Part shown: in pieces, positions 23,907 through 54,299 of the stretch
Numbering within the stretch: position 1 is the first letter of the stretch
Layout: each line of letters opens with the position of its first letter
Assembly (NCBI GenBank): GCA_012513915.1
Contig: JAAZBG010000139.1
Span: 1-64,000 of the forward strand
Length of the DNA stretch: 64,000 nucleotides
From: Fibrobacter sp.
Lineage (GTDB): Bacteria; Fibrobacterota; Chitinivibrionia; Chitinivibrionales; Chitinispirillaceae
Direction: 5' to 3'
Notes under the pieces: model-generated
Databases searched by the model: none
The model's input: the letters and a program-made list of their open reading frames with translations, nothing else
Told to the model about the DNA's origin: nothing
Program-made: the position numbers and the translations under genes

Positions 23907-23936
23907 CACATAATTCGTTATCTATAGGAGTTTTTC

Positions 23937-25215: not shown

Positions 25216-25468
25216 TACATGTTCATACTTTTCAAAAAATTGGTCTGCCATTAACAGTTCATTCTTATATGCTTTTATATTTTTCTATGACAAGCTGGTT
25301 TAATACTATTTTTGGCATTCAAAGAGACGGTACTGATAAACGGCACACTCCCGGTCATAACTCTTTTCTCTTCAATTTTTTCCGTTGTCACAGACACTGA
25401 CAAACTACTATTTTCTGGTGTTTATAAATGTACTTTTAAAATCAGCAGTATAAGGATCATTACCGATA

Positions 25469-26356: not shown

Positions 26357-26422
26357 CCACATTACCATACAATCAACCGGCAACTACGTAAGTTACAGAA
26401 GTAAAAAAATGAAAGGTACTGT

Positions 26423-27706: not shown

Positions 27707-27730
27707 ACTTTTTTTTATAAGGTTTATTGT

Positions 27731-33200: not shown

Positions 33201-33728
33201 AAGTTCATCAATTTTTAACCGAAGATTTGCTGCAATACTCTTAATAGTTTCACTATCGCTTTTCAAAAGATCTTCACAACTGATGGTACAAACGATTCCG
33301 TCGACCGGACGCTCATTACGACATTCAACCAGCCCCTGATAAACAGATCTGAATGTTTCAAGACCTTCCGGCTGAAGCAATTTTCCTGGAATATCAATCC
33401 AGACTGCTTCATTTGAAAATCGCCACTCGACGCCACTTGCGGTCGCACCATCTTTGTCTTCCGGATAGATAAGCGGAAAATGTACATCAGAGCCGTTAAG
33501 AACAGTGGTCTTTCCTGACTTTTCCGGCCCTATAAGCATAAACCAGGGATTACCGTAAATAGCGCTGTTCTTGAAAAGGTTGCTCCGCTTTACAGAATCA
33601 ACATATCTGTGTGTCGCAGTCTTAAGCTCCCTAAGAATTTTCGATGATACCTCATTATTGCCCATGAGCTTTGCTGATTTTGAACTACGCTTATCTTTCC
33701 GATTAAACAATTTCATTGATACAACCAC
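30291..33728 (-). CDS. tssM: T6SS membrane-complex protein TssM (IcmF)
   Basis: 1145 residues. An N-terminal GTPase-like domain has Walker A GPEKSGKT (67-74), DIPG (112-115) and TKAD (191-194). A single membrane segment lies at ~393-413 (WLLTGLFAVVFLSIGLYMVF), then a ~730-residue periplasmic part ending in the IcmF C-terminal beta region (LLPLPQNKLQGSITFGAQEY...FGGRWGLMRL). TssM with TssL and TssJ forms the trans-envelope complex. The two N-terminal membrane helices that normally precede the GTPase domain are absent. ATG 33716 (MKLFNRK) is an alternative start. Confidence 0.93.
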   Translation of the reverse strand: MVVSMKLFNRKDKRSSKSAKLMGNNEVSSKILRELKTATHRYVDSVKRSNLFKNSAIYGNPWFMLIGPEKSGKTTVLNGSDVHFPLIYPEDKDGATASGVEWRFSNEAVWIDIPGKLLQPEGLETFRSVYQGLVECRNERPVDGIVCTISCEDLLKSDSETIKSIAANLRLKIDELIAFWGIELPVFCIITKADTISGFYEFFNDASVEWPDQLLGATFSTDQQMAPARKVFVQEHEELCGSLKVLRLKRLSKERKETVRRAICRFTIEFEGLQTRAGDFFAELFKDSKYEGKPVFRGFYFGSCKSFEVSSNTAIDYAAQSAGPSDLSNTVLNHPLNPHRMSRTSVTPVAINVAKKQVKSFFTKRLFSQIFPGGTQLLQKTQKFSRKERIRYWLLTGLFAVVFLSIGLYMVFANSQVNKLYNTTKAEMDAALSAPQSVTDAYEQLGRLGDLLEQYKKFYEKGMPPKYGIGLVKSKEIYAALKKVYINRLWNFIVVPTVSYLESNIHDANASFKPLNGEEYTQLYRQLKTYLSMSEAIAQNKDRIDTVTIRENIEAAIVYQFTKGSSAGRLPENVEIIVRNSIRLYCSYLKSNEMQLIQEKQDMVAIARQRLSKLPDAQVLYESMRDRLLSIAPQMTLTDLLAGNADPVLKSPSSISLLYTQEGWNRFVADELENVIKDPFKVDWVLGASKEKITDGLMNKSELREELIAEYYSDVFVKWIEFLGSISVEPFGDIIRAGTVLQKLAVTGSEMDLVLQKVLTMSNIEIKAKEEQVAEVAKKVFAKKIKKIEKKASPLKALMPPGTSPQEAVKNAFSPLSSFHKSEGSTATMAEYRNRMSTLAEALLRCSKQGNLLTTFNGTDQDPLLSSYNYTQKVLIGMPDQIKMALTPILLNSVDYTGNVMSALISKELNQKWQNDVAAVFTNGFAGKYPFSHNDDECSFDGVMEYFRPNTGSFWGFYTRNLQPYIYKDGNEWKTRQVGNITILFQPELFGSMKNAEKITRAFFNLDGTLIIHKIRMLPLPQNKLQGSITFGAQEYRILPDENSVRVQWPIPGQTDDVLLKIFVNSKYTEEMKFGGRWGLMRLFESARTNTMNTTAFVAKWERSVNNMFMIQYGCHVQIAHPDHPFAGKIFSRFDCPTDIIKPQQ

Positions 33729-33809: not shown

Positions 33810-36452
33810 TTATACTGTCACAGTATCTTTTACTTCAAAGGTGATCGCAAATTCACCAGTTTCGTCTACATCGATCTTTACACATTTTTCCTGTTCCTGA
33901 TTATCGGTACCCACATTTGCGAGCAGATAATTTGAAATCGCAGGAAGAAGACTGTTGTTGATAATCATGTCAATGTTGCGGGCTCCGGCTTCCGCAGCAC
34001 TACAACGTTCAGCAATTGCGCTAACAACAGTATCACTATACACACAGCCAGCCTCATGAGCATCCTGTAGCCGTTTTTCCACCTTGTTAAGCTTCAGTCG
34101 TATTACCGATTCGATAACATCACGTGTAAGCGGTAGAAATGGAACTACAGTACAGCGGGCAAGCAGTGCAGCCTGAAAATGTTCTGTCAATTCAGGCCTG
34201 ATATATTCAATAATAGCTTTGGGATCTGTGATGTCCTGTGCCTGCGCCTGCATAATCGTGTCTGCACCAAGATTTGACGTCATAAGAATTACTGTATTTC
34301 TGAAATTAATATCACGCCCCTCACCATCACGCATCATACCCTTGTCAAACACCTGATAAAACATATTCAGAACATCACGATGAGCTTTTTCAACTTCGTC
34401 GAGAATGACAATTGAATACGGTTTCTGACGAACAGCTTCTGTCAGGATACCGCCTTCACCATACCCGACATATCCCGGAGGCGAACCTTTAAGCTGCGAC
34501 ACTGTATGTTTTTCCTGATATTCCGACATATTGATAACCGTTGAGAATTTCTCTCCACCAAAAAGAAGATCTGCAAGCGCCATTGCCAGTTCTGTTTTAC
34601 CGACACCTGATGGTCCGGTGCAGAGAAATACACCCATTGGTGCCTCCGGATTTGTCATACCGGTTTTTGCAGAGCGGATAGCTGCAGATATTTCAGCGAT
34701 TGCAGCAGCCTGCCCCTTAACTCTTTCGGATAGTTTATTTTCAAGCTCCAGAAGAGTCTGTGCCTCATCTTTAACCATTGACCCAACAGGAATTCCCGTC
34801 CAGTCAGCAATAACCTGCGCACAAATCTCTCCGCTTACATGAGGATACACCATCGCGGTTTCCCCGGCTATTGCAGCAAGCTCGGCATTCTTCTGATCAA
34901 GCTCTGATTTCAGCTTCGTTACCATATCGGTGTCAGAATCACTCTTACTGTTAACCTCAACAAGCTGCTCCTGAAGTTTTACTATAACCTCAACAAGCGC
35001 TTTCTCCTTCTCCCACTTTGCAGTAAGCTCCGCAACTTCCACCTCTGCTTTCGCCTTGATATCTTCATACTTGATAATTGCCTTTTCGTCATAGGCAATA
35101 CCCGCAGCTTTGTCTTTATTAAGAGTTTTAAGTGCACGGTTTGCATCTGCGAGAAGTTTCTTGCGGTACTCGATTGATGGCGGTGTTGTTGTACGGCTCA
35201 TCTTGACACGTGTACAGGCGGTATCGAGGACATCGACAGCTTTATCCGGAAGTTGACGTCCTGATATAAAACGGTTTGAATATGATACAGATGCCTGAAT
35301 GCCATCTTCGGTAATATGCACCCCATGATGCCGTTCATAGCTTTCGGCAATACCGCGAAGCATTGCACAGGCTTTTTCCTCATCAGGTTCATCAACCTTG
35401 ACAAGTTGAAAACGCCGGGTCATTGCCGGATCCTTCTCGAAATACTTGCGGTATTCAAGCCAGGTTGTAGCGGCGCAGGTGCGGAGCTCACCGCGCGCAA
35501 GAGCTGGTTTAAGAAGGTTTGCTGCATCACCGGTTCCGGCAGCACCACCAGCTCCGATAAGTGTATGCGCTTCGTCAATGAAAAGAATGATTCTTCCGCC
35601 ACTTTTCTTAGCAATGTCAATAACACTCTTCAATCTCTTTTCAAATTCGCCTTTGACACTTGCACCAGCCTGAAGTAATCCCAGATCAAGCTCCCACAAT
35701 TCGACATCCTTCAATGATACCGGCACACTACCTGCTGCAATCTGTTGTGCAAGGCCCTCCATAATCGCTGTTTTTCCCACACCTGCTTCACCAACAAGAA
35801 TAGGATTGTTTTTCCTGCGACGACTGAGAATGTCTATTACCTGGAAAATTTCACTATCACGTCCAAGAATCGGATCAGTTTTCCCAGCCTTTGCATCGGC
35901 AGTCAAATTTTTACAATACTTCTCAAGTTCTGTTTTGTTAAAAGCCGGGTCACCACTTTCACGTGCTACCTTATCGTCATTCTCAGATGACCTGGCGAGA
36001 ATATTGAGCAGTTCCTTTTTCAGCATTTCGTCATCAATATGACGCAATTCTGCAGCATACTGCGCGAAAGAACGTTTCATTTCGTCAAAGGCTGCTGCAA
36101 ACAAAACGCCCGAACGAATCTGTGTCATTCCATACCGCAGAGAACCAAGCCCCCATGCAGATTCCAGAAGAGCAATCAATGACGGAGAAAATGATGGTTT
36201 TGCAGTATTTCCTCTTGGAAACCCTTCGATTTCACTTGTCAACGACTTTTTTATACGCGCGCTATCAATACCGAAATGTCGTAATATCTGCGCAATATCT
36301 CCGTCAGTTTCATCAATCAGTGTTGCGAACAGATGTTCCCATGTAAGTTCATAATTGGTATTGCTTACACAAACACCTACTGATGCCTGGAATGATTTTT
36401 GGCAAATACCATTCAGTTTGTCAAGAAGCGTACGAATATCGGTCACTACCAT
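33810..36452 (-). CDS. tssH: T6SS sheath-disassembly AAA+ ATPase TssH (ClpV)
   Basis: 880 residues, ClpB-type: an N-terminal double repeat domain, AAA-1 with GEAGVGKT near residue 225, a coiled-coil middle region (residues ~430-520) and AAA-2 with GPSGVGKT near residue 615 followed by a Walker B (IVILDEVEKAH). TssH unfolds contracted TssBC sheath. Gene context (tssG upstream, tssM downstream) separates it from housekeeping ClpB. Confidence 0.95.
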   Translation of the reverse strand: MVVTDIRTLLDKLNGICQKSFQASVGVCVSNTNYELTWEHLFATLIDETDGDIAQILRHFGIDSARIKKSLTSEIEGFPRGNTAKPSFSPSLIALLESAWGLGSLRYGMTQIRSGVLFAAAFDEMKRSFAQYAAELRHIDDEMLKKELLNILARSSENDDKVARESGDPAFNKTELEKYCKNLTADAKAGKTDPILGRDSEIFQVIDILSRRRKNNPILVGEAGVGKTAIMEGLAQQIAAGSVPVSLKDVELWELDLGLLQAGASVKGEFEKRLKSVIDIAKKSGGRIILFIDEAHTLIGAGGAAGTGDAANLLKPALARGELRTCAATTWLEYRKYFEKDPAMTRRFQLVKVDEPDEEKACAMLRGIAESYERHHGVHITEDGIQASVSYSNRFISGRQLPDKAVDVLDTACTRVKMSRTTTPPSIEYRKKLLADANRALKTLNKDKAAGIAYDEKAIIKYEDIKAKAEVEVAELTAKWEKEKALVEVIVKLQEQLVEVNSKSDSDTDMVTKLKSELDQKNAELAAIAGETAMVYPHVSGEICAQVIADWTGIPVGSMVKDEAQTLLELENKLSERVKGQAAAIAEISAAIRSAKTGMTNPEAPMGVFLCTGPSGVGKTELAMALADLLFGGEKFSTVINMSEYQEKHTVSQLKGSPPGYVGYGEGGILTEAVRQKPYSIVILDEVEKAHRDVLNMFYQVFDKGMMRDGEGRDINFRNTVILMTSNLGADTIMQAQAQDITDPKAIIEYIRPELTEHFQAALLARCTVVPFLPLTRDVIESVIRLKLNKVEKRLQDAHEAGCVYSDTVVSAIAERCSAAEAGARNIDMIINNSLLPAISNYLLANVGTDNQEQEKCVKIDVDETGEFAITFEVKDTVTV

Positions 36453-36507: not shown

Positions 36508-37464
36508 TTATTCCCGCCCCGGGATGGTGATGGAATACCCGAGACTGCTTCCTGACGCATCACCGCATCCGGAGGAAATACCCAGGGGTGCAGTATCACT
36601 TCCAAGCACAACAGGAATAAGATCTGTCGGTTTGAAACGTACTTCTATATCAAACGCCAGCGGTTGCGGCGCAAAGATCTTCACAATTTCTTTAACCTGT
36701 TCGATATTTTCAGACCCCGGAAGATACTTATCGAACATCGTTTTGTCTGTCAATTCAAGAACAATATTGATTTTCCCGCTTCTGTCGTAAATTCTGTCAC
36801 CAAGCATTGATTCATTGCCAAGCTGAAAATCAGATCCGATTTTTTTCAGCGTTTCAACTTTTGCCCAGCGCTCAGCCCACTGGACGACATCAACCCTGAC
36901 ACCTTTAAAACAGTCGGTCAGAATTTCTTCAAGTCCGGCAGCATTATGTGTTACTCCCGAAAGCAACCCAGCATATGTTTTAAGATAGTCTGATTTTGAT
37001 TTTTGTGTAGTCTTTACAAAACCAGACAAGTAGCCAATTCTGTTATACAGATCAAAATTATCAGCCTGAGAAAAAGTCGGAATATTACGGTATTTTTTCC
37101 AGGCACGATAAAAGAGGCTATACATGCGGTGATCAAAAACATTTAAAAAGTCAATTAACGCGGTCGCTTCTTTAGCATGCACTGCGGCATATGCTGTAAA
37201 ATAATGAGGCAATGGGGAACTGATTCCGAGTAGTCCCATAAAGGAAAGAAATAGTTCAACACCGGAATTACCGTGACTTTTTGCATCATGAATATCACTT
37301 GCCGGAAAAGTAATACCGGTATCAGCAGAAAACCGCACATTGCCTTTTGCAATAGCTTCCTTATCACTGCCATCACAGCCAAAATACTCCTCAAGCAGCG
37401 ATACAGCCTGAAAGAACTCGAACTCATAACAACGTTCGGTTAATGCTTTTATCAGATCAGACAC
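36508..37464 (-). CDS. tssG: T6SS baseplate protein TssG
   Basis: 318 residues of the TssG (VasB/ImpH) family: EFFQAVSLLEEYFG at the start, then FPASDIHDAKSHG and ELFLSFMGLLGISSPLPHYF, the family core. It overlaps the end of tssF by 13 bases. TssF-TssG-TssE-TssK make the baseplate wedge. Confidence 0.92.
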   Translation of the reverse strand: MSDLIKALTERCYEFEFFQAVSLLEEYFGCDGSDKEAIAKGNVRFSADTGITFPASDIHDAKSHGNSGVELFLSFMGLLGISSPLPHYFTAYAAVHAKEATALIDFLNVFDHRMYSLFYRAWKKYRNIPTFSQADNFDLYNRIGYLSGFVKTTQKSKSDYLKTYAGLLSGVTHNAAGLEEILTDCFKGVRVDVVQWAERWAKVETLKKIGSDFQLGNESMLGDRIYDRSGKINIVLELTDKTMFDKYLPGSENIEQVKEIVKIFAPQPLAFDIEVRFKPTDLIPVVLGSDTAPLGISSGCGDASGSSLGYSITIPGRE

Positions 37465-39200
37465 CGTTTACCCTCAATCTGACTCCATGTCAGCACTTTC
37501 CCTGATGGTTTCAGGATCACCTTTAACTCACAAAATGAATTAATCGCCGTATAATGACTGAGGAATTTTGAGAGCACAAGCCCAAAAAGATGTACATCAC
37601 CGGTGTCCCGAAACGCCTGTTCCTCAAGGGTGATACTAAAACGAACCCCTCTGATAATACTCCCTTTATAAAGATGCTCCATCGGTTCACTTGACACATC
37701 AACAATTGCTTCAATTCTTCGTGCACGTCCCTCCTGCCCCGACCAGTTATACAACTGTAAAAATTTCCTGAGTACATCCCTGTTTGCCATACTTCCCTGC
37801 GTAGCCACAAGATGAGCCTGGAAAATCCATAACAGTTCTTCATCTTCCGGTGGCAGAAATGGCAGCGTCGGACGGGTGATATTGCTGATTTTGATAAAAT
37901 CAGGAAAATCCTTTCCCGGAGCACTTATCTGCCCCTCGACAAGGGAATCCCGGGGAACATCTCCATTGGTGCACCATGCCTCAATTACCAGACTTTCCTC
38001 ACCAATTTCTTTATTTTTCAGCTGCGCACCGCCGAGCATAAGATTCATTTCACGCGCACCGGCAGGTGTTTTTACAAAACGGGTAGAATACGTTTTGCGC
38101 TGTTTGTTACCAAGATTATTAAAGGTATAGGCAGGTTCGTAATTGTACCGTTCACCGGTGATTCTATCCACGCCAACAACCGACCGGACACTATGTACAC
38201 GCATTTCTTTACGAAATGTCGCATTTGCGACAACACGATATTCAGATTGAAGCCCGGTTTTTAGAACCGGTTCTGTATTACTAATGAATGCATTGACAAC
38301 TGGACAGCAGTTCATTCTGAACATTGAGAGAGAGAACTTTTTGTCTGCCGGCAACGATTCACCAATTGTAAAACGCAGGGTAATCGACTCAGGCGTTTCT
38401 GAAGGTTCCGGTATTTTGTCAATACCATTTATGTCAAAAAACAGGAACTTTTCTGGATAGATAAAATATTCACGCAGCAGATTATACCCCCAGAAACTTC
38501 TGCGCATTTCGGGCATCAGCGATTCTTCAGGACTAAGCCCTCCGGGTGTAATTGTACACAATGGATCAAGTTCATGCCTGACTTCACCATTATCAAACTC
38601 AAGCTCAGCGCGCTTGACATTTGTTGTAAAAGCCCTGTGAAGCATCAGCGATGTCGGCATTTCGGCGAAAAGAAAGAGACGAAGCTGCTTAAAATTATAC
38701 TTGTTCCACTGTACCGTTTTATCAAGAATGAATTTAAACGTAAAAATATCGTTATTCATGCTGTCGGTAACACGGTTAACCGATGTAAGGGTAATCGGAT
38801 TCATCATGACCGGTGCAGCAGTTGTAAACTTGCAGACAAGCGCCTGGTTCCCTATCGCCTGCGACAATACCTCGGAACGTACCGGAATCAATTTAGCTTC
38901 CTGCAATGAACCCGGCCGGGCATCAAACTGAACAATTGATAACGCCGGAACCTCAAGAAGATACTGAGGCCACAAAAGGTTGGTTAACCCTTCAGTCAAC
39001 TGAGGAAAGGTGTCATCAAGTTTTTCCCTGATTCTTCCGGCAAGAAAAGCAAATCCTTCAAACAGCCGTTCAACATAGGGATCCCGATCACCAACAGAAT
39101 CAATATTGAGATAGTTTGCCCTGTCAGGATGCGCTTTCGCAAATTCACACCCGGATTCGTACAAATACCTCAATTCATCTTCAAAATATTTTTCTATCAT
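37452..39200 (-). CDS. tssF: T6SS baseplate protein TssF
   Basis: 582 residues of the TssF (VasA/ImpG) family: YFEDELRYLYESGCEFAKAH at the start, DPYVERLFEGFAFLAGRIREK and QYLLEVPALSIVQF are classic. C-terminal ALPKFLSHYT-like LSKFLSHYTAINSF. Eleven bases separate it from tssE. Confidence 0.94.
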   Translation of the reverse strand: MIEKYFEDELRYLYESGCEFAKAHPDRANYLNIDSVGDRDPYVERLFEGFAFLAGRIREKLDDTFPQLTEGLTNLLWPQYLLEVPALSIVQFDARPGSLQEAKLIPVRSEVLSQAIGNQALVCKFTTAAPVMMNPITLTSVNRVTDSMNNDIFTFKFILDKTVQWNKYNFKQLRLFLFAEMPTSLMLHRAFTTNVKRAELEFDNGEVRHELDPLCTITPGGLSPEESLMPEMRRSFWGYNLLREYFIYPEKFLFFDINGIDKIPEPSETPESITLRFTIGESLPADKKFSLSMFRMNCCPVVNAFISNTEPVLKTGLQSEYRVVANATFRKEMRVHSVRSVVGVDRITGERYNYEPAYTFNNLGNKQRKTYSTRFVKTPAGAREMNLMLGGAQLKNKEIGEESLVIEAWCTNGDVPRDSLVEGQISAPGKDFPDFIKISNITRPTLPFLPPEDEELLWIFQAHLVATQGSMANRDVLRKFLQLYNWSGQEGRARRIEAIVDVSSEPMEHLYKGSIIRGVRFSITLEEQAFRDTGDVHLFGLVLSKFLSHYTAINSFCELKVILKPSGKVLTWSQIEGKRCLI

Positions 39201-39210
39201 GTATCATTCA

Positions 39211-39630
39211 CTACTGTGGTTTTTTCCACGGAATTATTGTTGACGGCTCATGGGTTGAAAACGTTGTCTGAAATTTGACCTGCCCGCCACTTTTTAGTTC
39301 TGCTGACAAAATGAATACTAATTGCGATCCCTTGATTTCAGAATCCCTTGGTACAACCTTGACATTTTTTAATCGCGGTTCATACTTTTCCACCGATGTC
39401 CTGATAGCCTGCTGAAGCTCATCAAGACCATCAGGCATGCGGCGATATAATTCTGAAATGTCAGGTAGGCCATAGTCCGGCAGATGTGACAGACAACCGC
39501 TGCGGGTATTAAATAAACGACTCAGGTGATCAATAATGGAAACCATCGGCCTGCGCGATTCAGGAACACTATCAATCGGTGTTCCATCAAGAAACGCACC
39601 TGTCAGACTTTCAAACAATCCCTGTTTCAT
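39211..39630 (-). CDS. tssE: T6SS baseplate protein TssE (gp25-like)
   Basis: 139 residues with the GPW/gp25 fold: LSRLFNTRSGCLSHLPDYGL and PDGLDELQQAIRTSVEKYEPRL are diagnostic. It starts the tssE-F-G-H unit downstream of the tssC terminator; I could not assign its promoter in 39631-39780. Confidence 0.92.
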   Translation of the reverse strand: MKQGLFESLTGAFLDGTPIDSVPESRRPMVSIIDHLSRLFNTRSGCLSHLPDYGLPDISELYRRMPDGLDELQQAIRTSVEKYEPRLKNVKVVPRDSEIKGSQLVFILSAELKSGGQVKFQTTFSTHEPSTIIPWKKPQ

Positions 39631-41416: not shown

Positions 41417-41549
41417 GAATAACTCCTTCTTGACGCAGAACACAGTTATTTTTCAGTTATACTATGATAGTGATCATTAATCACTACCGCCTGACATTGT
41501 TCTCAGGAATTGCTCCTGGAAACAACGCCGGAAATAGTCCCGGTCAAAC

Positions 41550-42101: not shown

Positions 42102-43715
42102 TTAATTAGAAAATGCTATTTTCGGATCTGCAAATGATAACCGTTTCATTGCGGCATCGCGTTTCTCAATAATCCTGTTGAGATTAACCGCTGAATCTTT
42201 CTCTGTATCTTTATCCTTACCGGATGTTAAGAGCATAGTGTAGGCACGGACAAGGTAATTCAGTGCTTCTGCTGCCAGTGATGGTTCCCAGTTCACCAGA
42301 TTATTTCTATCAATAATTTCAACAAGGTTCTCTAATATATAAATTGCAATATCCGGACGCTTGGAAGAAATCATTATTGACGCAATAACGACCCTTCTGC
42401 GGAAGTTATCCCGCTCACTTCCGGACTCATTGATTTTTGACATAAGTAAATCAACTGCATCATCAACCTTATTCCCTGATGCCAAATCATTTGCAGCCCG
42501 TCTGTCAGCTTCTACGACATCATTAACATTCCCGCCACCCCCGCCTTTACCGGATGACAGCATCGCAGCAACATCTGAGTTAATCCAGTCAAGTGTCGCC
42601 GGATCACAAAAAGGTGTTCCATCACTATATGCAAGTGTACAAATTTTAGGAACACGCTTAACAAAAATCGCTGTTTCAAGCAGAATCGCATTGCGAACAG
42701 CATCATAGGATGGTCCCAGCTGTTTTGCCGCAGTGGCTGCTATTCTTTGTAAATCAAGCCAGTACAGCGTAACACCGGAACTAAATGCTTTTTCTACAGT
42801 TTCAAAAGCGACCTTAAAATCTCCCTTGCCAAGCAAACCCTGCAAAAAATTTCTTCGTTCCTCTGGAAGAGGATCAAGTCGTGTAAGATTTCCCTCTGTT
42901 ACAACAGGTGCATTCTCGATTGAATCCCAGCGGACGGAACGCATTAACCGGTAACCGGCAGGTTTCAAGGGTTCTTTTTCAATAAGAAAGATTGCCGCTT
43001 TTCTGACAAGCTCAAGGGCATCTTTGACATTTTCCATTGGTCCCGCAGACGCAGATACACCCGCTCCAGCAGATCCACCTGCAGAAGATGTTGCCACCGG
43101 TGCAGCCTGAGACGACGGCGTACTCTGCGTTTGTGGCCCGGTTGTTTGCTGTTGTACCGGAGGTGGTGGCGGTGCCTCCTTTTTAGGCTCTGTTGCTTTC
43201 ACCCATTTCTGCGCTGCCTGATATAAACGAGCTGGAAATGGAGACCCGTTTGGAAACTCAACATCAAGTTTCACCTTAAGTTTTCCAAGACAGTCAACAA
43301 GCCGTTTGTAACTTTCATGCGCATCCGGTGATGCAACCGATTTGTCTATCAGATCAAGAAACCTGTCCTCACCAAGCCATCCAAATGCAAGCTGTTTTGC
43401 ACGTGGCCGCTGAGGGAAAATAGCATTGTAATCTTTTTCAACAAGCTGCCCGAGTGCATCAAAACAATCACAGAACGAGTCCCACTCGTTCTTTCGCATA
43501 TAGCACATACTAAGAAAAAGAAACAGTCGGATATCTTTCGATTTTTCGGACAGCAACTCCAGTGACTTTTGCTCAATAAGCTCGTAATCAAGTCCGCCAA
43601 GTTTTAGAATCTCCGCCTTGATTAATTCAAACCCCGGATCATAATTGATGTCCTCACCAAATGACGTACCGCCATTAAAAAGCGTTACCAGTGCTGAAAG
43701 GTGCTCGGAAGAAAT
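42102..43715 (-). CDS. tssA: T6SS cap/baseplate-associated protein TssA, probable AUU start
   Basis: 537 residues if read from ATT 43715. The ImpA_N core is upstream of any ordinary start: GTSFGEDINYDPGFELIKAE and LLSEKSKDIRLFLFLSMCYM. The frame back to its stop at 43785 has no ATG, GTG or TTG until TTG 43556, which lies inside the conserved domain and has no ribosome site. AAAAGGAG sits 7 bases before ATT 43715, so an AUU start is the best reading. A Pro/Gln/Ser/Ala linker lies in the middle (QQQTTGPQTQSTPSSQAAP), then the C-terminal domain (LYWLDLQRIAATAAKQLG). TssA primes and caps sheath assembly. Confidence 0.88.
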   Translation of the reverse strand: MSSEHLSALVTLFNGGTSFGEDINYDPGFELIKAEILKLGGLDYELIEQKSLELLSEKSKDIRLFLFLSMCYMRKNEWDSFCDCFDALGQLVEKDYNAIFPQRPRAKQLAFGWLGEDRFLDLIDKSVASPDAHESYKRLVDCLGKLKVKLDVEFPNGSPFPARLYQAAQKWVKATEPKKEAPPPPPVQQQTTGPQTQSTPSSQAAPVATSSAGGSAGAGVSASAGPMENVKDALELVRKAAIFLIEKEPLKPAGYRLMRSVRWDSIENAPVVTEGNLTRLDPLPEERRNFLQGLLGKGDFKVAFETVEKAFSSGVTLYWLDLQRIAATAAKQLGPSYDAVRNAILLETAIFVKRVPKICTLAYSDGTPFCDPATLDWINSDVAAMLSSGKGGGGGNVNDVVEADRRAANDLASGNKVDDAVDLLMSKINESGSERDNFRRRVVIASIMISSKRPDIAIYILENLVEIIDRNNLVNWEPSLAAEALNYLVRAYTMLLTSGKDKDTEKDSAVNLNRIIEKRDAAMKRLSFADPKIAFSN

Positions 43716-43996: not shown

Positions 43997-44479
43997 TTAA
44001 CGACCAGCATTCCATGAATCTGTATGAATGAGACCACCATCAGTATATTCCCATGTAATTTCAGCATAACGGAAGCTTACTTTTTCCATATGAACATACT
44101 TTTCAAACTCTTTAGCCTTTACATTGTACATAAGAGGCTCAACTGCGGACACTTTTACATCCTTGAGCTGATGAGTAAAATAAAGAACCTCATCACCCTT
44201 TTCGTCAATTCTATACCAGTCAAGCTTCAGTGACGGGAACGATTCGCCATTACATACTGCTTTGTAAAGAAGTGGTGATGACTGATCAAACGCCTTTACA
44301 ATCTGAAAAGCTTCGTGTTTTCTAACGCCTGTAAGAGCCCCTGTATCAGGATCTGTTGGCATACGAACTTCATGATGAAATTCGATTACTTCAATACTAC
44401 CTTCACGACCTGCAACAACTGATCCGCCAGTGATTTTTCCACCTTGACCTTCAAGCCACATATATGCTGGAATTGGCAT
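43997..44479 (-). CDS. hcp: T6SS tube protein Hcp (TssD)
   Basis: 160 residues, the usual length. MPIPAYMWLEGQGGKITGGS, then EFHHEVRMPTDPDTGALTG and KHEAFQIVKAFDQSSPLLYK are family signatures. AAAGGAG precedes the ATG. It is monocistronic: own sigma-54-type promoter and own terminator, as expected for the most abundant secreted component. Confidence 0.96.
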   Translation of the reverse strand: MPIPAYMWLEGQGGKITGGSVVAGREGSIEVIEFHHEVRMPTDPDTGALTGVRKHEAFQIVKAFDQSSPLLYKAVCNGESFPSLKLDWYRIDEKGDEVLYFTHQLKDVKVSAVEPLMYNVKAKEFEKYVHMEKVSFRYAEITWEYTDGGLIHTDSWNAGR

Positions 44480-45095: not shown

Positions 45096-46763
45096 ATGGC
45101 ATATTACTACCTTGAAATAATCCGCGGCCAGGAAATTGGAAGACGACACCTTCTTAAAGAGGGCGCAATTACTGTCGGACGAAGCAGTAAAAACATGATT
45201 TGCATCAATTCTGTTGAAAGAACCGTCTCGAACCATCATGCGATTATTTACAAATATGGCGATAGTATCAGCATTCAGGATATTGGCAGCACCAACGGAA
45301 CCTACAAAAATGGCACCAGACTATCAGAGGAAGCAGAATCTCTGGGACACAATGATGAGATCAGTTTTGGTGAAAAGGGCCCAAAAATAAAACTGATCAT
45401 CTCGCAAACTGAACTCAGCACTACCCCGCGGTTAAAACCCGGTGAATCACAAACATCTCCCGGTCGTTTAGTGTCCAAGAATGATGAAACCGAGCGATCG
45501 TTTCGTACTGGCCTTGAATATGATCAGAATGAAAATTCTGATGCACTGTTCCCGACAAGAAACCGCCACTCCAGAAAATCCGAATGTGATTTTGGTTATC
45601 ATACAATGGAACTTGAAAACAAGATCCTCAACAAACGGCTCAGTGCGGACGAAATGAATAAACTGATGAAACAAGGGGACCGTGTTGACAAAATCATTCA
45701 AAAGGGAAACCTCAGTGAGACGCAGGTTCACTTTCTCCATACATCCTATAATGCACAAAAAAAACTCAAAACAAAATCCGCTACCATTCTCTGTATTGTT
45801 GCCCTTGTATCATTGACGCTTATAACATTCTTTACAGTCCGCATGTTCCAGTACAAGGCAATAGTCAATGATGCTGTCTCAAGTGAAAAAAATCTCGACA
45901 AATACGAAACAGACATTTCCAATGCAAAAAAACGGGGTGCCAGCGAAGCAACTCTTGAAGAACTCGTTGCAAAATTCGAAGAGGAGCGGGATCGTTTCAA
46001 TAGCCTTAAAAGCAATCTTCGTGATAAAGATGTAAAGCGTTTCTACGAAGACACCGTCGAGTTTTACATTGCAGAAATTATGGGACGCCTCGGTGAAACC
46101 GACTATCATATTCCTAAAGAGATGGTCTTACGGGTAAAGCACCACATAGGTGTTTACACCGGTTCACTAAAACCGGTTATTGCCCGTTATCTTGAACGAA
46201 AAAAACTCTATTTTCCAATGATTTTAAGGATCTTTAAAGATAAAAAAGTACCTCTGGAACTTGCATATGTGGCAATGCTTGAAAGCGGCTTTAATCCAAA
46301 TGCGTTAAGCCATGCAGGTGCACGGGGCTTATGGCAGTTTATGCCTAAAACCGGACGATCATATAATCTTCGCGTTGACGAAGTGATGGATGAACGTACC
46401 AATCCTGAAAAAGCCACCTATGCTGCAGCAGAATACTTTCTTGACCTTATCGGAATATTCGGTGGACAGAGCAGTATGATGCTTGCGATGGCTGCCTATA
46501 ATGCTGGTGAGGGACGTGTTATGGGTGCTTTACGAAAAATAGAAGATCCTGTAAAAAACAGGGATTTCTGGTATATTTACAATATGGGCTACCTCGCAGA
46601 AGAAACCAACGAGTACATTCCGCGTGTTCTTGCAATGATGATTATTGATCAGCACGCAGAGCAATACGGGTTTAAAGCCCAGCTTCCACTGGATCGTAAC
46701 GACCGTGATAACTTGACAAAAGAAAACGATTTTATTCCCGTACCGGTCCATAAGGCAGAATGA
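45096..46763 (+). CDS. FHA domain - membrane helix - lytic transglycosylase fusion
   Basis: 555 residues. N-terminal FHA domain (residues ~10-100) with GRS at 28-30, SNHH at 45-48 and STNGTYKNGT at 65-74, the phosphothreonine-binding loops. A polar linker leads to one membrane segment at ~229-249 (ATILCIVALVSLTLITFF), then a coiled coil (~260-310). The C-terminal part (~365-500) is an SLT family-23 transglycosylase: AMLESGFNP with catalytic Glu396, SHAGARGLWQFMP, and MAAYNAGEGRV. This joins the cytoplasmic Thr-kinase readout of T6SS (Fha) to a periplasmic peptidoglycan-cutting domain in a single chain. It is opposite hcp and next to vgrG and the kinase. Confidence 0.88.
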   Translation: MAYYYLEIIRGQEIGRRHLLKEGAITVGRSSKNMICINSVERTVSNHHAIIYKYGDSISIQDIGSTNGTYKNGTRLSEEAESLGHNDEISFGEKGPKIKLIISQTELSTTPRLKPGESQTSPGRLVSKNDETERSFRTGLEYDQNENSDALFPTRNRHSRKSECDFGYHTMELENKILNKRLSADEMNKLMKQGDRVDKIIQKGNLSETQVHFLHTSYNAQKKLKTKSATILCIVALVSLTLITFFTVRMFQYKAIVNDAVSSEKNLDKYETDISNAKKRGASEATLEELVAKFEEERDRFNSLKSNLRDKDVKRFYEDTVEFYIAEIMGRLGETDYHIPKEMVLRVKHHIGVYTGSLKPVIARYLERKKLYFPMILRIFKDKKVPLELAYVAMLESGFNPNALSHAGARGLWQFMPKTGRSYNLRVDEVMDERTNPEKATYAAAEYFLDLIGIFGGQSSMMLAMAAYNAGEGRVMGALRKIEDPVKNRDFWYIYNMGYLAEETNEYIPRVLAMMIIDQHAEQYGFKAQLPLDRNDRDNLTKENDFIPVPVHKAE

Positions 46764-46922: not shown

Positions 46923-49091
46923 TCAGTTGATTTTCACTAAACCGCCACTAATTGTGGCCATAGCCCCACCCGATAGTTTCGCCATAGCACTTGATGAAAA
47001 CTCGGCACTTACGTTTGCTGTTGCCTTCATGGTTGTCTTGGCTGTAAGATCTACGGTTGTTGCCTCTACTTTATAGCCCACCTTACCCTTGACACTTACA
47101 TTCAGTGCATCAATGGTGGTGTCGGTAGTTGACTTAAGGTTAATGGTTCCCTGTGACGATGCCACCTTGACATTTGCGCCTTTGATCTCGACATCCTGTT
47201 GTGCAGTAATTGCGATTTTTCCCTGCGATTCCATAGCTATTCCCTTATTTCCATCCAGGGTAACCGTATTTTTCCCTGCACAATCTTTCATGACAATCGT
47301 CTTTCCTTCATCATCCATCTGAATTATATGCCCGGCAGCAGTCTGTAAGGTCATTACCTTATTGGCATCATCAATCCTGATAATATGTCCCTTTGCGCTG
47401 GTGATCGTAATATGCTCCTCACCATCCTTATAGGACATCATCATGTTATGATTTTTCGATGTAAGCGTTGTACTTGTGTTCTTATCGTCAATGAGCAGCT
47501 TGTTACCATCAGTCGTCTGTACCAGAATGAATTTATTCTCATCATCATACACCATCTTATTTTTCGCTGCGGTTCTGATACTGACTTTCTGTTTATCAAT
47601 TGTATCATCGAAAATCATCTCGTTATCACCGGCAGTCCGGATTACACTTTGCTCCTTGTTTGCTCCAACAACGGGGGATTTTGTATCTGCATTTGGAACA
47701 GTTCCTATACCAAGCGGTTTGTCAACATCGCCATCAATGCATGCAAGCACCATCTCCGCACCCTCATGTGACGGAAAATGAATGCCATAATTGGCTCCGC
47801 TGTAGGGCTGTGCGAGACGAATATACTTGGAAGCATCATAATTAGCCGTATCGGAAACATCAAACGGCATTCTCACTTTGTATCTTCCGAATTCATCGAG
47901 GCTTGCATAATCCGCACCGTTTGCTTCAATCGGTGCAGTCGTTATTCCGTAAAGTGGTGTCGGCTTATGTTTTTTTTGTGGCGCGAATGAGACAATTTTC
48001 GCTGATGGCAGCAACTGTGAATGATTCTGATATGTTGCCCTGTCATGAAATCCTGCAATACTTGTATGAGCACCGGTCTGCGTTACTGACAAAATAAGGA
48101 ACGTATCGTTACATTCTTTACGCTGATGATCACTGATAGTAAAACGCATACCAGCCCTGAAACGTCTGCAGTCGGACACCACATTAACATTTACAAATTC
48201 AACAGTATGCTGTTTAGCCAGCAGGAGTGCTGATTTTTGCGCGGACTCGGTATCTCTGAATTTCCCGCCATACTCATAATCCAATCCGGTAAGACCATCC
48301 TCAACATTCTTTTTAACATACGGGCTTACGTCAGGAGTACGGTAGTTATAGTTTTTGACAGCAACATCTGCTGTGATAACCTTTCGTTCAAATGTTAATC
48401 TGCTGCAGCATTCCCGCTCATCTTTAGTATGACTTTGTACCATACCGGATTTGGTCCGGAACTGCACAGTTGTTTCACCGGTAATCGGAATAAACGAATC
48501 AGGCTTATCTGAAATAATCAGTTTCTCGTTACTCACATTTTCAAGACTATCCCCGGATACCGGGTTTTCCTTAAAGAAAAACCAGATACCAACCTCTTCC
48601 AGGAGCCTGCAAATGAAGTTGTAATCAGACTCTTTATGTTGAACGATATACTCACGCTGCGGGTAGGAATTCTGAAGATCAAACTGATAATAGTTTGCCA
48701 GTCCGTTTTCATCAAGGACTTTCTGAACGACCTCATTTACACTGAGCTTCTGAAACACTCTTGACTGATGTGTAAGATTGGTAATCCAGAGTCTTGGTAC
48801 AACATGCGCCTCGTAGGTAGAGAAATCTGTTGATGTTTCTACATAGTTAAAACTGCTGATAATTCCTGAGTAGGGAAAAAACTGTTCATCACGGTAGATA
48901 AAAAGGCTTGCCGGTTTGTTAAGCAGCGATACAGCATCAATATCATGATCCTGAGATCTTAGCGTAATTTTAAAATCATAGCAATCAGAGATGGTGTCAT
49001 CACCGCAGAAATCGATAACATTAAATGTATCAACGGGTAATGTACCACACATGAAAACAAATTGAGCCTGATTAGCTTTCGTAGTCCTCAT
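46923..49091 (-). CDS. vgrG: T6SS spike protein VgrG (TssI)
   Basis: 722 residues. gp27-like N-terminal part (FNYVETSTDFSTYEAHVVPR, LCRLLEE-type ICRLLEEVGIWFFF), gp5 OB-fold with GRYKVRMPFDVSD, and HFPSHEGAEMVLACIDGDVDKP. It ends in a repetitive beta-prism (KSTTDTTIDALNVSVKGKVG, VSAEFSSSAMAKLSGGAM) with no extra effector domain, so cargo is probably bound non-covalently. 21 bases downstream of the kinase gene. Confidence 0.95.
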   Translation of the reverse strand: MRTTKANQAQFVFMCGTLPVDTFNVIDFCGDDTISDCYDFKITLRSQDHDIDAVSLLNKPASLFIYRDEQFFPYSGIISSFNYVETSTDFSTYEAHVVPRLWITNLTHQSRVFQKLSVNEVVQKVLDENGLANYYQFDLQNSYPQREYIVQHKESDYNFICRLLEEVGIWFFFKENPVSGDSLENVSNEKLIISDKPDSFIPITGETTVQFRTKSGMVQSHTKDERECCSRLTFERKVITADVAVKNYNYRTPDVSPYVKKNVEDGLTGLDYEYGGKFRDTESAQKSALLLAKQHTVEFVNVNVVSDCRRFRAGMRFTISDHQRKECNDTFLILSVTQTGAHTSIAGFHDRATYQNHSQLLPSAKIVSFAPQKKHKPTPLYGITTAPIEANGADYASLDEFGRYKVRMPFDVSDTANYDASKYIRLAQPYSGANYGIHFPSHEGAEMVLACIDGDVDKPLGIGTVPNADTKSPVVGANKEQSVIRTAGDNEMIFDDTIDKQKVSIRTAAKNKMVYDDENKFILVQTTDGNKLLIDDKNTSTTLTSKNHNMMMSYKDGEEHITITSAKGHIIRIDDANKVMTLQTAAGHIIQMDDEGKTIVMKDCAGKNTVTLDGNKGIAMESQGKIAITAQQDVEIKGANVKVASSQGTINLKSTTDTTIDALNVSVKGKVGYKVEATTVDLTAKTTMKATANVSAEFSSSAMAKLSGGAMATISGGLVKIN

Positions 49092-49112: not shown

Positions 49113-51137
49113 TCAGAAAGAAGCGAGTTTCTGATTCGCCAATTTGAAACGTGGGTGATTGGGTTGAGATATATAAACTCTTTTCAGTGTATTCCAAGCC
49201 ATCATCGCCCGCTGACGGGCCTCAGGTGATAGTGTTGCATTATAACGATTGTCATAAGAAAGTGCCGCATAGTAAAGCGCATCATTTCTTACAAGCTGTG
49301 TATTACGGAAATTACTTGGACGGGTAAGTGCCACCTCGAATTTATCATGTGCAAGTTTGTCTTTCCCCTGCATAAAAGCGACACGTCCCTCAAGCAGCAC
49401 ATAGAAAGCATCATCCGTAGTAAACGATCCAAGAATCTGCGCTGCTTTAGCGGTATTTCCCAACTCCACATATGCAAGTGTCAATAAGACATTACCTTTT
49501 GTCTTTTTGGGGCTGTCAGACGGTACATTTTCAATAGCAGTGATTACATCATTCCAGGCACTGTTTCGGGCGGCTGCATCAGCTATGTCTACAAAATCAG
49601 TCTCATTATACTTTCGGATAAGAATATCAGCCGGAGATTCTTTTACTGTTACCGGTGGTGACGGTTTTTTAGGCGATACCGTCTTTGGTGTGGGAGACTT
49701 TTTAACATTAGATACAACCGGAGGAGGATTTTTCACCGTTGGTGCAGGAATTGTTTCCACGGGTGGAAGTACAGCCGTAACCTGTGTGTCGGGTGCTTTT
49801 ACAAGTTTCGATGTGTCGATAGTAACCGGTATCGAATCAGGTGGTGTGACCGTTGTCAAATTCTCTTTTATTGGCGGAAATGCAATCAAAAGCGCGGCAA
49901 CTGCTCCGATCAGCGTGACAGCTCCGATACCTATAAAAACCGGAATCAGTTTTCCAATTTTCAGTTTCTTTTTTCCCGGCTTAAGCACAAAGCTGTTTGG
50001 ATTTTCAACATACTGCTGAAGTACTGTATCGATTGACTCATTTGTCATATGTCCGAACACTGTTTTCAGCGTATCTTCAAGCTCTTTAGAGGTTGCAAAA
50101 CGCTCGTTTTTATCCTGACTCAGGCATTTTTCAACCGCTTTTGCAAGGTGAGGATGAACATCAATTGACAATGCATCAAATTTGCGATATGAATTGAGAA
50201 TTTTCATCCGCATCAGATTTGTTACCGTCTGCTGCGGAAATGTTTTCTCTCCGGTCAACGCCTCGTACATAATCGTGCCAAGAGAATAAATATCACTGCG
50301 CTGATCTATTTCGCTTTCATCAAGCTGCTCTGGTGAAAGGTATGGCAGTGTACCAACGATATTGCCTGCAACGGTATGCAACCCGACCTCTGATGGCCGT
50401 GCGATACCGAAATCCATCAGTTTTACGACACCATTTCTTCCGATCATAATATTGGCAGGTTTCAGATCGCGATGAATAATGCCATTGTATGTTTTTCCAT
50501 AGAGCAGAAACTTCTCTGTATGCGCATATGCAAGAGCACTTGCGACCTGAATGACGATAGCAGCACAAACAATTGGTGGCATTTTGCCGTAATCTTTTAT
50601 AAGCGAATCAAGCGAAACCCCCTCAACCAGTTCCATCTCAATATAAGGAAGTCCGTTCCAATCGCCAACGGCATAGGTTTCAACAATGTTAGGGTGACGC
50701 AATTTAGCTGAAATTTTGATTTCAGTTTCGAAACGTTCCATTAATTCAGGTCGTTCTGTCGGAAGCAATACTTTGACAGCCCGATACATTTCGAATTTTT
50801 CATTCCAGACTCTGTACACCCGGGCCATACCACCTTCACCAAGCGTACCGGCAATTATACCGGAACCCAGTGGAATTGCCTGGTTTCCATCTGGAAGTCT
50901 TGCCGCATGCGTAAGCGTAGTAAGGGGTGTGGCTTTTCCACCAGTCTGAGTATATGGATTCACTATCCCGGACTGGGAATAAGTATCGTTCCTTAAAGGG
51001 AGTTTTTGGGGCTGCTGCGTATAATAATTACCATCAGCCTGTGTCTGACCCGATGCAGGAAATGAATGACCGAGACTGCCCTCAGAAATGGTCTTGTCAA
51101 ATTCGTCCTGTCCGCCTCTGAAATTATCCTGATTCAT
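49113..51137 (-). CDS. Membrane Ser/Thr protein kinase (PpkA-type) of the T6SS locus
   Basis: 674 residues. A ~90-residue Gln/Thr-rich leader precedes a complete kinase domain: GTLGEGGMARVY, Lys in AVKVLL, HRDLKPAN (222-229), DFG (242-244), and GTLPYLSPEQL. One membrane segment at ~397-420. The outside part has a Thr/Pro/Lys-rich stretch and TPR-like repeats (LAYVELGNTAKAAQIL). Its natural partner is the FHA domain of 45096-46763. No matching PppA phosphatase is seen. It lies between vgrG and the PEGA protein, all on the minus strand. Confidence 0.92.
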   Translation of the reverse strand: MNQDNFRGGQDEFDKTISEGSLGHSFPASGQTQADGNYYTQQPQKLPLRNDTYSQSGIVNPYTQTGGKATPLTTLTHAARLPDGNQAIPLGSGIIAGTLGEGGMARVYRVWNEKFEMYRAVKVLLPTERPELMERFETEIKISAKLRHPNIVETYAVGDWNGLPYIEMELVEGVSLDSLIKDYGKMPPIVCAAIVIQVASALAYAHTEKFLLYGKTYNGIIHRDLKPANIMIGRNGVVKLMDFGIARPSEVGLHTVAGNIVGTLPYLSPEQLDESEIDQRSDIYSLGTIMYEALTGEKTFPQQTVTNLMRMKILNSYRKFDALSIDVHPHLAKAVEKCLSQDKNERFATSKELEDTLKTVFGHMTNESIDTVLQQYVENPNSFVLKPGKKKLKIGKLIPVFIGIGAVTLIGAVAALLIAFPPIKENLTTVTPPDSIPVTIDTSKLVKAPDTQVTAVLPPVETIPAPTVKNPPPVVSNVKKSPTPKTVSPKKPSPPVTVKESPADILIRKYNETDFVDIADAAARNSAWNDVITAIENVPSDSPKKTKGNVLLTLAYVELGNTAKAAQILGSFTTDDAFYVLLEGRVAFMQGKDKLAHDKFEVALTRPSNFRNTQLVRNDALYYAALSYDNRYNATLSPEARQRAMMAWNTLKRVYISQPNHPRFKLANQKLASF

Positions 51138-51160: not shown

Positions 51161-51886
51161 TTAGAAGAAAGCTATTATCTCGAAACCAACAATGCTTAAA
51201 GCACCAACTGTTATACCAATTACCTCCTGAGTACGTGCTCTGCCGGCTTCACTACCTGAATTGCCGTCCCACAAATGCATCTGCTTGTCTCTTTCTCTAA
51301 TAATTGCAAACGTAAAGCCTGCAGCTGCAAGTCCGCCTAAAGCGAGTCGGGCAATAACTTTTTTGTGATTTGGTTTTGGTTTATCCACCTGTATCATCTC
51401 AAGTGTATCAAGCACGGTTTGAACAGCACCCTCCGTAACTGTAACATTCTCTGAAGAAGATTTGTACAGTTTATTTGGATGACGTATTTCAAGAATATAT
51501 TTCCCCGGATTGATAAATTCATTGACAAGTGGTGTCTTTCCCAATGGCATGGTCATATATACCTCTGCATCCTCGGGAACACTGTTAATCCGAAGCGTAC
51601 CAAATTTCGGTTTTAATTTCTTCTCAATCACCACGGTTGCATTTGCAGTGATCATAACCTGTTCTGTCTGACTTATCCGCATCACCGGATCAATCAGCTT
51701 AACGGTATAACGCCCGACTGGCACCTTTTTACCAATAACTGGAGAGTTACCTATATAATTGTCTCCAAGCCAGATTTCAACGCCATCAGGATCTGTTGTT
51801 ACGGTCAACATACCCTCTTCAGCTGCCATAGTAGAAGTAAGTACAGCACAAACACCCAGAAACATCAGCGCAAAACGTTTTAACAT
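51161..51886 (-). CDS. PEGA-repeat exported protein with C-terminal membrane hairpin
   Basis: 241 residues. Signal peptide (LKRFALMFLGVCAVLTSTMA). Two PEGA-type repeats follow: TVTTDPDGVEIWLGDNYIGN and RINSVPEDAEVYMTMPLGKT, each with the PVxxGxYxxxl motif. The C-terminus has two hydrophobic segments (ARLALGGLAAAGFTFAII, VIGITVGALSIVGFEIIAFF) around a charged loop. First gene of the PEGA-kinase-vgrG unit. PEGA proteins often bind surface polysaccharide; here a role at the envelope complex is possible. Confidence 0.8.
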   Translation of the reverse strand: MLKRFALMFLGVCAVLTSTMAAEEGMLTVTTDPDGVEIWLGDNYIGNSPVIGKKVPVGRYTVKLIDPVMRISQTEQVMITANATVVIEKKLKPKFGTLRINSVPEDAEVYMTMPLGKTPLVNEFINPGKYILEIRHPNKLYKSSSENVTVTEGAVQTVLDTLEMIQVDKPKPNHKKVIARLALGGLAAAGFTFAIIRERDKQMHLWDGNSGSEAGRARTQEVIGITVGALSIVGFEIIAFF

Positions 51887-52178: not shown

Positions 52179-53531
52179 ATGTTAGGAAATGATAAAGTTA
52201 TCTGGAAAGAGGGTCTTTTTCTACAGCCTCAACACTTTCAACAGACCGAACGGTACATTTTCAGTTCTGTGCAGGGCCGCTTTGCAGCATCACACCCCTA
52301 CTATTTTGGGTTTATTCATTACGAAATCAGTCAGGATGCGCTTGCAAACAATACCTTCACCCTGACAAATGCCAAGGGGATTTTTCCCGACGGAACCTAC
52401 TTTTCAATTCCTGAAACAGGCCCTTTACCTCAGGCACGCACCTTTTCAGATCATTTTACTCACGATCAGATGGAACTTGATGTATACCTTGCACTCCCTC
52501 AGATTAATGAAGGTCGCCCGACTGTCGCCGAAGCCAACATTACCGCAACCGGCGCCAGGTACAAAAGCAAAAAAGATACTGTAACCGATGAGGTTTTCGG
52601 TCAGATAAAAAAGGAGATTGAAGTCGGCAAGGCTAATTACACGATTCTCTTTGGCGATGAATCACGGGATAATTTCAGTTCAATCAAAGTGGCATGCCTT
52701 AAACGATCACCAACAGGGCAGATTATCATTGATACGAATTTTATCGCACCATCACTGAGAATCAGCAGTTCATCGGTGCTTATCAACCTGTTACGTTCAT
52801 TGCTTGAACTCCTTCTTTCAAAATGTGTCAGCCTGTCGCAGGGAAGAAAACAGCTTAAAGGTGGATTTGCCGAGTTTGCACCGGATGAGATAACACCGCT
52901 CACACTGTTACTCACCCTTAATACATACACACCGCTCTTAAATCAATTTTACACAGCAATGAATATCCACCCATTCGATCTCTACCAAACCATGCTTCAG
53001 TTTACAGGTGCCCTGTGCACGTTTTCTGCGAAGGTAACAACATCCGCTCTGCCAGGTTATGACCATACATCACCGGCACGCTCATTTAACGAGTTGAATC
53101 ATATCATTCGCGATATTCTTGGTGCTGATATCTCTGCTGGCTGTATTCCAATACCACTTAAAGAGGTCAGTCCGGCAACCTACGTTGCCCAGGTCACCGA
53201 TACAAAACTTTTCGAAACAGCAACATTCTTTCTTGGAATTTCTGCGGATGTTTCATCAGAGAAAGAACTCGTTATCGGGTCCCTTACACGAATCAAGATG
53301 AGTTCCCGCAACAAACTTGACACATTAATACAATCAGCCATGCCCGGCCTGCCGCTTGTACATGTTGCAACGCCACCGCAGAGCCTGTCGACAAAACCGG
53401 GATACATCTATTTCTCTCTCAGTCAACGTCATATGCTCTGGGACACAATAAAGGCAACTGCAACCATTGCGATGTATTTCCCAAACAATTTTCCCAACCT
53501 GAAACTTGAACTGCTGGCAGTCATCTCGTAA
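52179..53531 (+). CDS. tssK: T6SS baseplate adaptor TssK
   Basis: 450 residues. KVIWKEGLFLQPQHFQQTER at the start is the family hallmark; LPQINEGRPTVAEANI and the C-terminal YFSLSQRHMLWDTIKATATI also fit. TssK links the baseplate to the TssL/TssM complex. Twelve bases separate it from tssL, which it contacts. Confidence 0.95.
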   Translation: MLGNDKVIWKEGLFLQPQHFQQTERYIFSSVQGRFAASHPYYFGFIHYEISQDALANNTFTLTNAKGIFPDGTYFSIPETGPLPQARTFSDHFTHDQMELDVYLALPQINEGRPTVAEANITATGARYKSKKDTVTDEVFGQIKKEIEVGKANYTILFGDESRDNFSSIKVACLKRSPTGQIIIDTNFIAPSLRISSSSVLINLLRSLLELLLSKCVSLSQGRKQLKGGFAEFAPDEITPLTLLLTLNTYTPLLNQFYTAMNIHPFDLYQTMLQFTGALCTFSAKVTTSALPGYDHTSPARSFNELNHIIRDILGADISAGCIPIPLKEVSPATYVAQVTDTKLFETATFFLGISADVSSEKELVIGSLTRIKMSSRNKLDTLIQSAMPGLPLVHVATPPQSLSTKPGYIYFSLSQRHMLWDTIKATATIAMYFPNNFPNLKLELLAVIS

Positions 53532-53543: not shown

Positions 53544-54299
53544 ATGGCAAACGATACATTTGCAAAAACAATTATTTCGCAAACAATGGATATCAATCTA
53601 TCCAGGGCTACGGGTGCAGCGCAACAAAAGGAGACGCTTTCAACGCTCTGCACTGACATTCTTCTGATCGTTATAAAAATGCGTGATGCCGAGGATCTGG
53701 GTGATACAGCACCATTACGAAAACTTATTCAGTATTATATCAGGCAATTTGAAAAAAACTGTGCTGTAATCGGAGTTAAACCGGAAACAGTCAATGCAGT
53801 AAAATACGCGCTTGTCGCTATTCTTGACGAAACGGTATTGTCTAACAGGGGACCGGCCCGTGAGTTCTGGATCACCAACCCAATGCAGCTTGAACTCTAT
53901 GGTGATAATATTGCCGGTGAAGCTTTCTACAACAAGCTTGACATGATGCTTCGGGAACCGGAAAAACACATCGATGCACTTGAAGTATACTATATCTGCC
54001 TGTGCCTCGGTTTTCAGGGAAAATACATTCTCGGAAACGCCGAAGAACGTGAATCAACTATTACAAAACTTGCGCGCACCCTTGTCAGAACGGGTAATCT
54101 TGATATCGACACGCTTTCTCCGCATGCAATTCGCAGAACTGTACTTAAAAAAAAAGTAAGCGGCGTGAAAAAAACCGTACGAATACCTCTCTGGCTTACA
54201 GCCTCGCTGCTTGCAGCAAGTCTTGTTTTCGGCTGGATCTGGATTAGTTATGAGGCGTCAAATAAAGCATCATCGATTACAGGACTGGTCGAACAGTAG
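53544..54299 (+). CDS. tssL: T6SS membrane protein TssL (DotU family)
   Basis: 251 residues. Cytoplasmic DotU domain with KYALVAILDETVLSNRG and YICLCLGFQGKY, then one C-terminal membrane anchor (LWLTASLLAASLVFGWIWI) and only ~18 residues outside, with no peptidoglycan-binding extension. Thus peptidoglycan attachment or remodelling would fall to other proteins such as the FHA-SLT fusion. Confidence 0.94.
   Translation: MANDTFAKTIISQTMDINLSRATGAAQQKETLSTLCTDILLIVIKMRDAEDLGDTAPLRKLIQYYIRQFEKNCAVIGVKPETVNAVKYALVAILDETVLSNRGPAREFWITNPMQLELYGDNIAGEAFYNKLDMMLREPEKHIDALEVYYICLCLGFQGKYILGNAEERESTITKLARTLVRTGNLDIDTLSPHAIRRTVLKKKVSGVKKTVRIPLWLTASLLAASLVFGWIWISYEASNKASSITGLVEQ

Follow-up and report, generated by a model that had tools for sequence, protein, structure and literature searches.

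A gene in the window (the whole stretch of 64,000 nucleotides that we analysed, from an uncultured Fibrobacterota bacterium whose genome is rated 8% contaminated) encodes an FHA domain, a membrane helix and an SLT lytic transglycosylase domain in one chain, and it lies inside a T6SS locus. Judging from the sequence, we see about an even chance that the product, FHA-SLT, is a phospho-recruited lytic transglycosylase doubling as the Fha protein of this T6SS. The gene and its parts are as follows.

45096..46763, plus strand: FHA - membrane helix - SLT (MltD-like) transglycosylase gene, ATG start, 555 aa (ORF, Pfam, AlphaFold2, Foldseek)
45168..45371, plus strand: FHA domain, residues 25-92 (Pfam E-value 6e-16)
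45603..45605, plus strand: Thr170 in T-M-E-L, candidate phosphosite or FHA docking site
45717..46013, plus strand: continuous helix 208-279 through the membrane and return helix 284-306, a predicted periplasmic hairpin stalk (AlphaFold2)
46251..46538, plus strand: SLT domain, residues 386-481 (Pfam E-value 1e-26), with catalytic Glu396 at 46281-46283

The AlphaFold2 model, built on a 21-sequence alignment (mean pLDDT 78, pTM 0.47), starts with the FHA fold; residues 113-167 form a disordered linker, and three juxtamembrane helices (166-203), helix 208-279 and return helix 284-306 lead up to the SLT fold. Together with the open reading frame, the Pfam matches and the single strong hydrophobic segment (residues 230-248, the membrane helix), it bears out the fusion of FHA, one membrane helix and SLT that a preliminary description of this DNA had proposed; the ‘coiled coil’ placed there after the membrane helix corresponds to the helical hairpin of the model. 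Foldseek matched the two halves to Pseudomonas aeruginosa MltD and to phosphothreonine-binding FHA domains. In most members of the long class of relatives the membrane helix and the catalytic Glu are 147-149 residues apart, and the linker from the FHA domain to the membrane varies in length. These data are best read as a bitopic inner-membrane protein, with a cytoplasmic FHA domain joined to a periplasmic, wall-cutting SLT domain.

Full-length relatives were found throughout Fibrobacterota, so the fusion is not a product of chance. Glu396, the E of the ES motif, was intact as first described; it is invariant in 36/36 Fibrobacterota relatives, as is most of the GLWQFMP and AYNAGE regions, and the loss of this residue in relatives, which the preliminary description had named as an outcome speaking against its proposal, was not seen. 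The phosphothreonine-pocket residues R29, S45, H48 and N67, plus N72, are invariant in 35/35 sequences (those of the 36 that include the FHA domain). Such conservation bears on the possibility that the protein is an Fha-like scaffold whose SLT domain is a passenger serving mainly as an anchor to peptidoglycan. Scaffolding by Fha is documented (PMC12607579), and wall anchors of the TagL type exist; however, binding alone would hardly be expected to keep the catalytic Glu and the core SLT motifs invariant in all 36 relatives, and we regard a passenger SLT as improbable.

The surrounding locus consists of the following genes.

30291..33728, minus strand: TssM
33810..36452, minus strand: TssH (ClpV-type ATPase)
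36508..39630, minus strand: TssG, TssF, TssE
39902-41443, minus strand: TssC
41550-42068, minus strand: TssB
42102..43556, minus strand: TssA
43997..44479, minus strand: Hcp
46923..49091, minus strand: VgrG
49113..51137, minus strand: Ser/Thr kinase that retains its AVK, HRDLKPAN and DFG motifs and has a membrane helix near residue 400
51161..51886, minus strand: PEGA-domain protein, adjoining the kinase and TssK in related loci
52179..53531, plus strand: TssK
53544..54299, plus strand: TssL (DotU), with N-terminal T14-M-D-I at 53583-53585

The FHA-SLT gene is thus flanked on the left by the minus-strand genes from TssM to Hcp and on the right by VgrG, the kinase and the PEGA protein, also on the minus strand, and then by TssK and TssL on the plus strand; these core tss genes, and the kinase with its intact motifs, confirm the earlier placement of the gene within a T6SS locus with a kinase. 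It is the sole FHA gene of the locus. Four FHA matches were found in the window genome: two FHA-SLTs, namely the gene described here and another copy on contig C222, and two further genes. The second copy sits between a kinase gene and a TssM gene, and contig C91 carries core genes of a second T6SS; each of the two T6SSs therefore appears to own an FHA-SLT. Neither T6SS locus of this genome yielded a soluble Fha gene.

Some further features of these loci deserve mention. The small PEGA-domain protein recurs beside TssK (window 51161-51886; L113, L130, L135, L146, L148); the window proteins that were scanned included no recognisable TssJ, and the PEGA protein might replace an outer-membrane part of the T6SS. 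In genome G004 (L113:8421-9488) a 355-aa DUF2169 protein lies between the kinase and FHA-SLT, and G014 has a gene of similar size; the window has no DUF2169 protein, and VgrG occupies that place. Elsewhere in the window, B12-binding radical SAM enzymes, ketoacyl synthases, a short-chain dehydrogenase and an amine oxidase cluster at 18458-29179, a possible lipid or polyene pathway, and the Por secretion tail of a PA14/fibronectin protein at 57134-58831 suggests a type IX secretion substrate.

Like the Fha/TagH proteins (P. aeruginosa Fha1, Agrobacterium tumefaciens Fha), FHA-SLT has an FHA domain with an intact phosphothreonine pocket and belongs to a T6SS locus that also encodes a PpkA-like Ser/Thr kinase and has no second FHA gene; unlike them, it spans the membrane and is fused to a transglycosylase. 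It scores 36.9 bits against the curated TagH model TIGR03354, below the cut-off of 120.25. The SLT domain, with its catalytic Glu and conserved motifs, belongs with the family 1 (MltD-like) lytic transglycosylases, while the score against the NCBIfam MltD equivalog NF008050 is 113 bits (cut-off 508). P. aeruginosa MltD (8rhf), the best PDB match by both sequence and structure, shares the fold and motifs of the SLT domain; in FHA-SLT, for which Pfam gave no LysM match, an inner-membrane helix and an FHA domain take the place of the LysM repeats. Local wall opening for a T6SS is also the role proposed for MltE of enteroaggregative Escherichia coli (EAEC) and TagX of Acinetobacter (PMC10433429), which are separate proteins, whereas FHA-SLT is a fusion. 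In EAEC, T6SS assembly requires MltE, a housekeeping enzyme that TssM recruits and stimulates (reviewed in PMC10433429). The models of two other proteins with an FHA-like domain, the YscD-type inner-ring protein of T3SS and the gliding protein GltG, match FHA-SLT weakly. We know of no wall-cutting domain in either.

To see how closely the family follows the T6SS we scored 168 Fibrobacterota genomes for FHA-SLT and TssF (most genomes named in this comparison are MAGs). FHA-SLT was present in 39 and TssF in 42; 37 genomes had both, two FHA-SLT only, five TssF only and 124 neither (Fisher test 3e-29, without correction for the tree). The two genomes with FHA-SLT only were G014, with TssK and TssL near the gene, and G035, which is 79% complete. 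Among the five with TssF only, G166 and G167 had weaker TssF scores and the remaining three were weak matches. G026 (83% complete), in which TssF was not found, has fragments of FHA-SLT and of a kinase next to each other at the end of a contig. Furthermore, two genera each hold one genome with both FHA-SLT and T6SS and one with neither (pairs G013/G005 and G012/G003).

T6SS loci contain the gene in the window clade, in G032 and in some short-class genomes (G012, G018, G021), and members of the second-T6SS clade have it next to TssM. As these T6SS-linked genes occupy separate places on the SLT tree, the gene has entered T6SS loci several times separately. The co-occurrence, the joint absence within genera and the separate entries all support recruitment of FHA-SLT to the T6SS. 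So do the copy for each of two T6SSs and the proximity of kinases: a kinase was found within 10 kb of 21 of 47 Fibrobacterota FHA-SLT genes versus 0 of 77 SLT genes without FHA, a control biased by the use of an HMM built from FHA-linked kinases and by control loci mostly from other phyla. On the other side, many main-class genes are far from core tss genes, which weakens the case; most of them come after a CHASE2-Ser/Thr kinase gene and a FecR-domain gene.

A protein of ∼550 aa is often encoded upstream of FHA-SLT in the CHASE2-kinase operons (L116:4083-5768, L120:9079-10677). It gave weak TssB or TssC matches, above Pfam cut-offs in two cases, and is a possible degenerate sheath fusion. We considered whether the ∼1100-aa protein encoded next to the f11 copies might be TssM and rejected this; the sampled neighbours were a TPR protein or transglycosylase-domain (PF00912) proteins.

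Outside the phylum the picture is different. A peptide-pattern scan of 84,980 genomes gave full-length matches in Fibrobacterota only, a result of its low sensitivity, as a later profile search found the fusion also in Myxococcota (a phylum name taken from the label of L043 in the tree) and Acidobacteriota; one clade of the SLT tree spans the three phyla. Of 195 Myxococcota genomes 75 have TssF; of the 13 FHA-SLT carriers identified there, only 2 do (carrier counts beyond Fibrobacterota are lower bounds, with few candidates scored per genome). With 11/13 carriers lacking TssF, we rejected a T6SS-only family: the architecture accompanies TssF in 37/39 Fibrobacterota carriers but, contrary to what a dedicated T6SS component would show, is not confined to T6SS genomes. 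Wide occurrence without T6SS, which the preliminary description had said would tell against its proposal, is thus seen in part, in Myxococcota and not in Fibrobacterota. BLAST found no T6SS genes near the Myxococcota and Acidobacteriota FHA-SLT loci, and in some loci outside Fibrobacterota the kinase directly adjoins the gene; hence the link of the module to kinases is primary and that to the T6SS secondary. The fusion is a wall enzyme of general use, linked to kinases, which Fibrobacterota have tied to the T6SS; it is not a T6SS invention.

One could go further and take FHA-SLT, even in Fibrobacterota, for a general kinase-controlled wall-remodelling enzyme, acting in envelope stress or growth and merely co-inherited with the T6SS. 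Its presence in Myxococcota and Acidobacteriota, mostly without TssF in the former, the CHASE2 sensor kinase as an operon partner and the single SLT clade over three phyla agree with such an enzyme, and the Myxococcota carriers weaken our main reading; however, mere co-inheritance fits poorly with the repeated, separate entry into T6SS loci, with the copy that each T6SS of the window genome has to itself, with the way both traits are missing together within genera and with the TssL motif match described below. We consider it rather doubtful.

Related gene arrangements were seen as well. In a Myxococcota protein (L214:4594-6537) a Ser/Thr kinase domain and an SLT domain share one chain, and a second SLT frame lies next to it. 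A 1596-aa open frame (L206:5797-10584) has FHA and SLT at its C-terminal end, preceded by ∼1090 residues without a Pfam match, and may be a frame read-through. Thiofilum flexile (L069:9674-11376) has the two parts unfused, as an SLT gene with a gene for a soluble FHA protein immediately downstream; the ORFs listed there included no apparent T6SS genes.

What the FHA domain might read is suggested by a shared threonine motif. Thr170 is the only linker residue invariant in all long-class Fibrobacterota FHA-SLTs, where T-x-x-hydrophobic stands 58-60 residues before the membrane (30/30); the motif is found 24-29 residues before it in Myxococcota (16/17) and 21 residues before it in Acidobacteriota (3/3). 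The TssL N-terminus of Chitinispirillales has T-x-x-[LI] at one place in 24/24 sequences (22 and two from the second T6SS, read by eye), with Thr14 in the window. In the short class the motif is absent from both proteins, with none at a fixed place in the FHA-SLT linker and none at the TssL N-terminus, and this parallel supports the main reading; the reading is weakened by genes that keep the FHA domain without the Thr motif, as in the short class and among the second copies in f11. The TssL of f14 also has no N-terminal motif, and f11 TssL N-termini (L245-L250) carry a repeated QT[ML]FG reminiscent of QTMF in Myxococcota FHA-SLT linkers. We had expected the TssL motif in those Myxococcota that carry FHA-SLT, but their TssL lacks it. 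The confinement of the TssL motif to Chitinispirillales also speaks against the main reading and leaves one clade with two paralogue groups, not many independent tests.

In A. tumefaciens PpkA is needed for phosphorylation of TssL Thr14, Fha binds phospho-Thr14, and an Fha R30/S46 double mutant loses phosphothreonine binding and secretion (PMC3953482). R29 and S45 of FHA-SLT correspond by position to R30 and S46. This precedent, like the need for MltE in EAEC, favours the main reading, as an analogy and not a homology, since the surroundings of the Agrobacterium site (DLPpTVVEI) are unlike those in the window TssL. FHA ligands are usually bound in extended form, whereas Thr170 falls inside a short predicted helix, which again weakens the reading; alternatively, Thr170 and TssL Thr14 may both be structural.

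The FHA domain might also bind its own phospho-Thr170 and gate the enzyme without TssL contact. In GarA/OdhI and DgcB, the FHA domain binds a phosphothreonine of its own chain; these proteins, unlike FHA-SLT, have no membrane helix and no wall enzyme. They are among the nearest FHA structures (6hc1 is the DgcB FHA domain bound to its own phosphorylated N-terminal peptide), and the motif persists in Myxococcota and Acidobacteriota, most of the former T6SS-less. A self-phosphorylation switch alone leaves aside the same motif on Chitinispirillales TssL, and we find it the least probable of the alternatives.

From the architecture, the conserved pocket and active site, the co-occurrence, linkage and motif conservation, we infer the following course of phosphorylation, binding, enzyme activity and order of events for a phospho-recruited transglycosylase. 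FHA-SLT would take the Fha position of the window T6SS as a bitopic inner-membrane enzyme. The membrane Ser/Thr kinase would phosphorylate Thr-x-x-hydrophobic sites, most likely TssL Thr14 and FHA-SLT Thr170; the FHA domain would bind phospho-TssL, fixing the enzyme at the TssL/TssM complex, and the periplasmic hairpin would set the height of the SLT domain near the growing membrane complex. Glycan strands would then be cut only at the docking site so that TssM can pass the wall, a step modelled on the stimulation of MltE by TssM in EAEC. Binding of phospho-Thr170 by the FHA domain, in cis or in a partner molecule, may compete with the docked state or stabilise it.

The preliminary description proposed that the site of wall opening for the T6SS could be set by phosphorylation; the same Thr motif in TssL and FHA-SLT makes this idea more specific. 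Tentatively, and with rather less confidence than in the main reading, we propose that one kinase may mark T-x-x-hydrophobic on both TssL and the transglycosylase and that the FHA domain may read the mark, coupling membrane-complex assembly to wall opening, with the kinase-FHA-SLT module serving other purposes in T6SS-less Myxococcota.

How the wall is safely opened at the site of T6SS assembly is still poorly understood, and EAEC borrows a housekeeping enzyme. We found no published account of a kinase-linked FHA-SLT family in the open-access papers searched; the present analysis exposes one in at least three phyla. As FHA-SLT unites sensor, membrane crossing and cutter and offers candidates for both the phosphosite and the docking peptide, the question of wall opening can be tested directly using peptides and point mutants.
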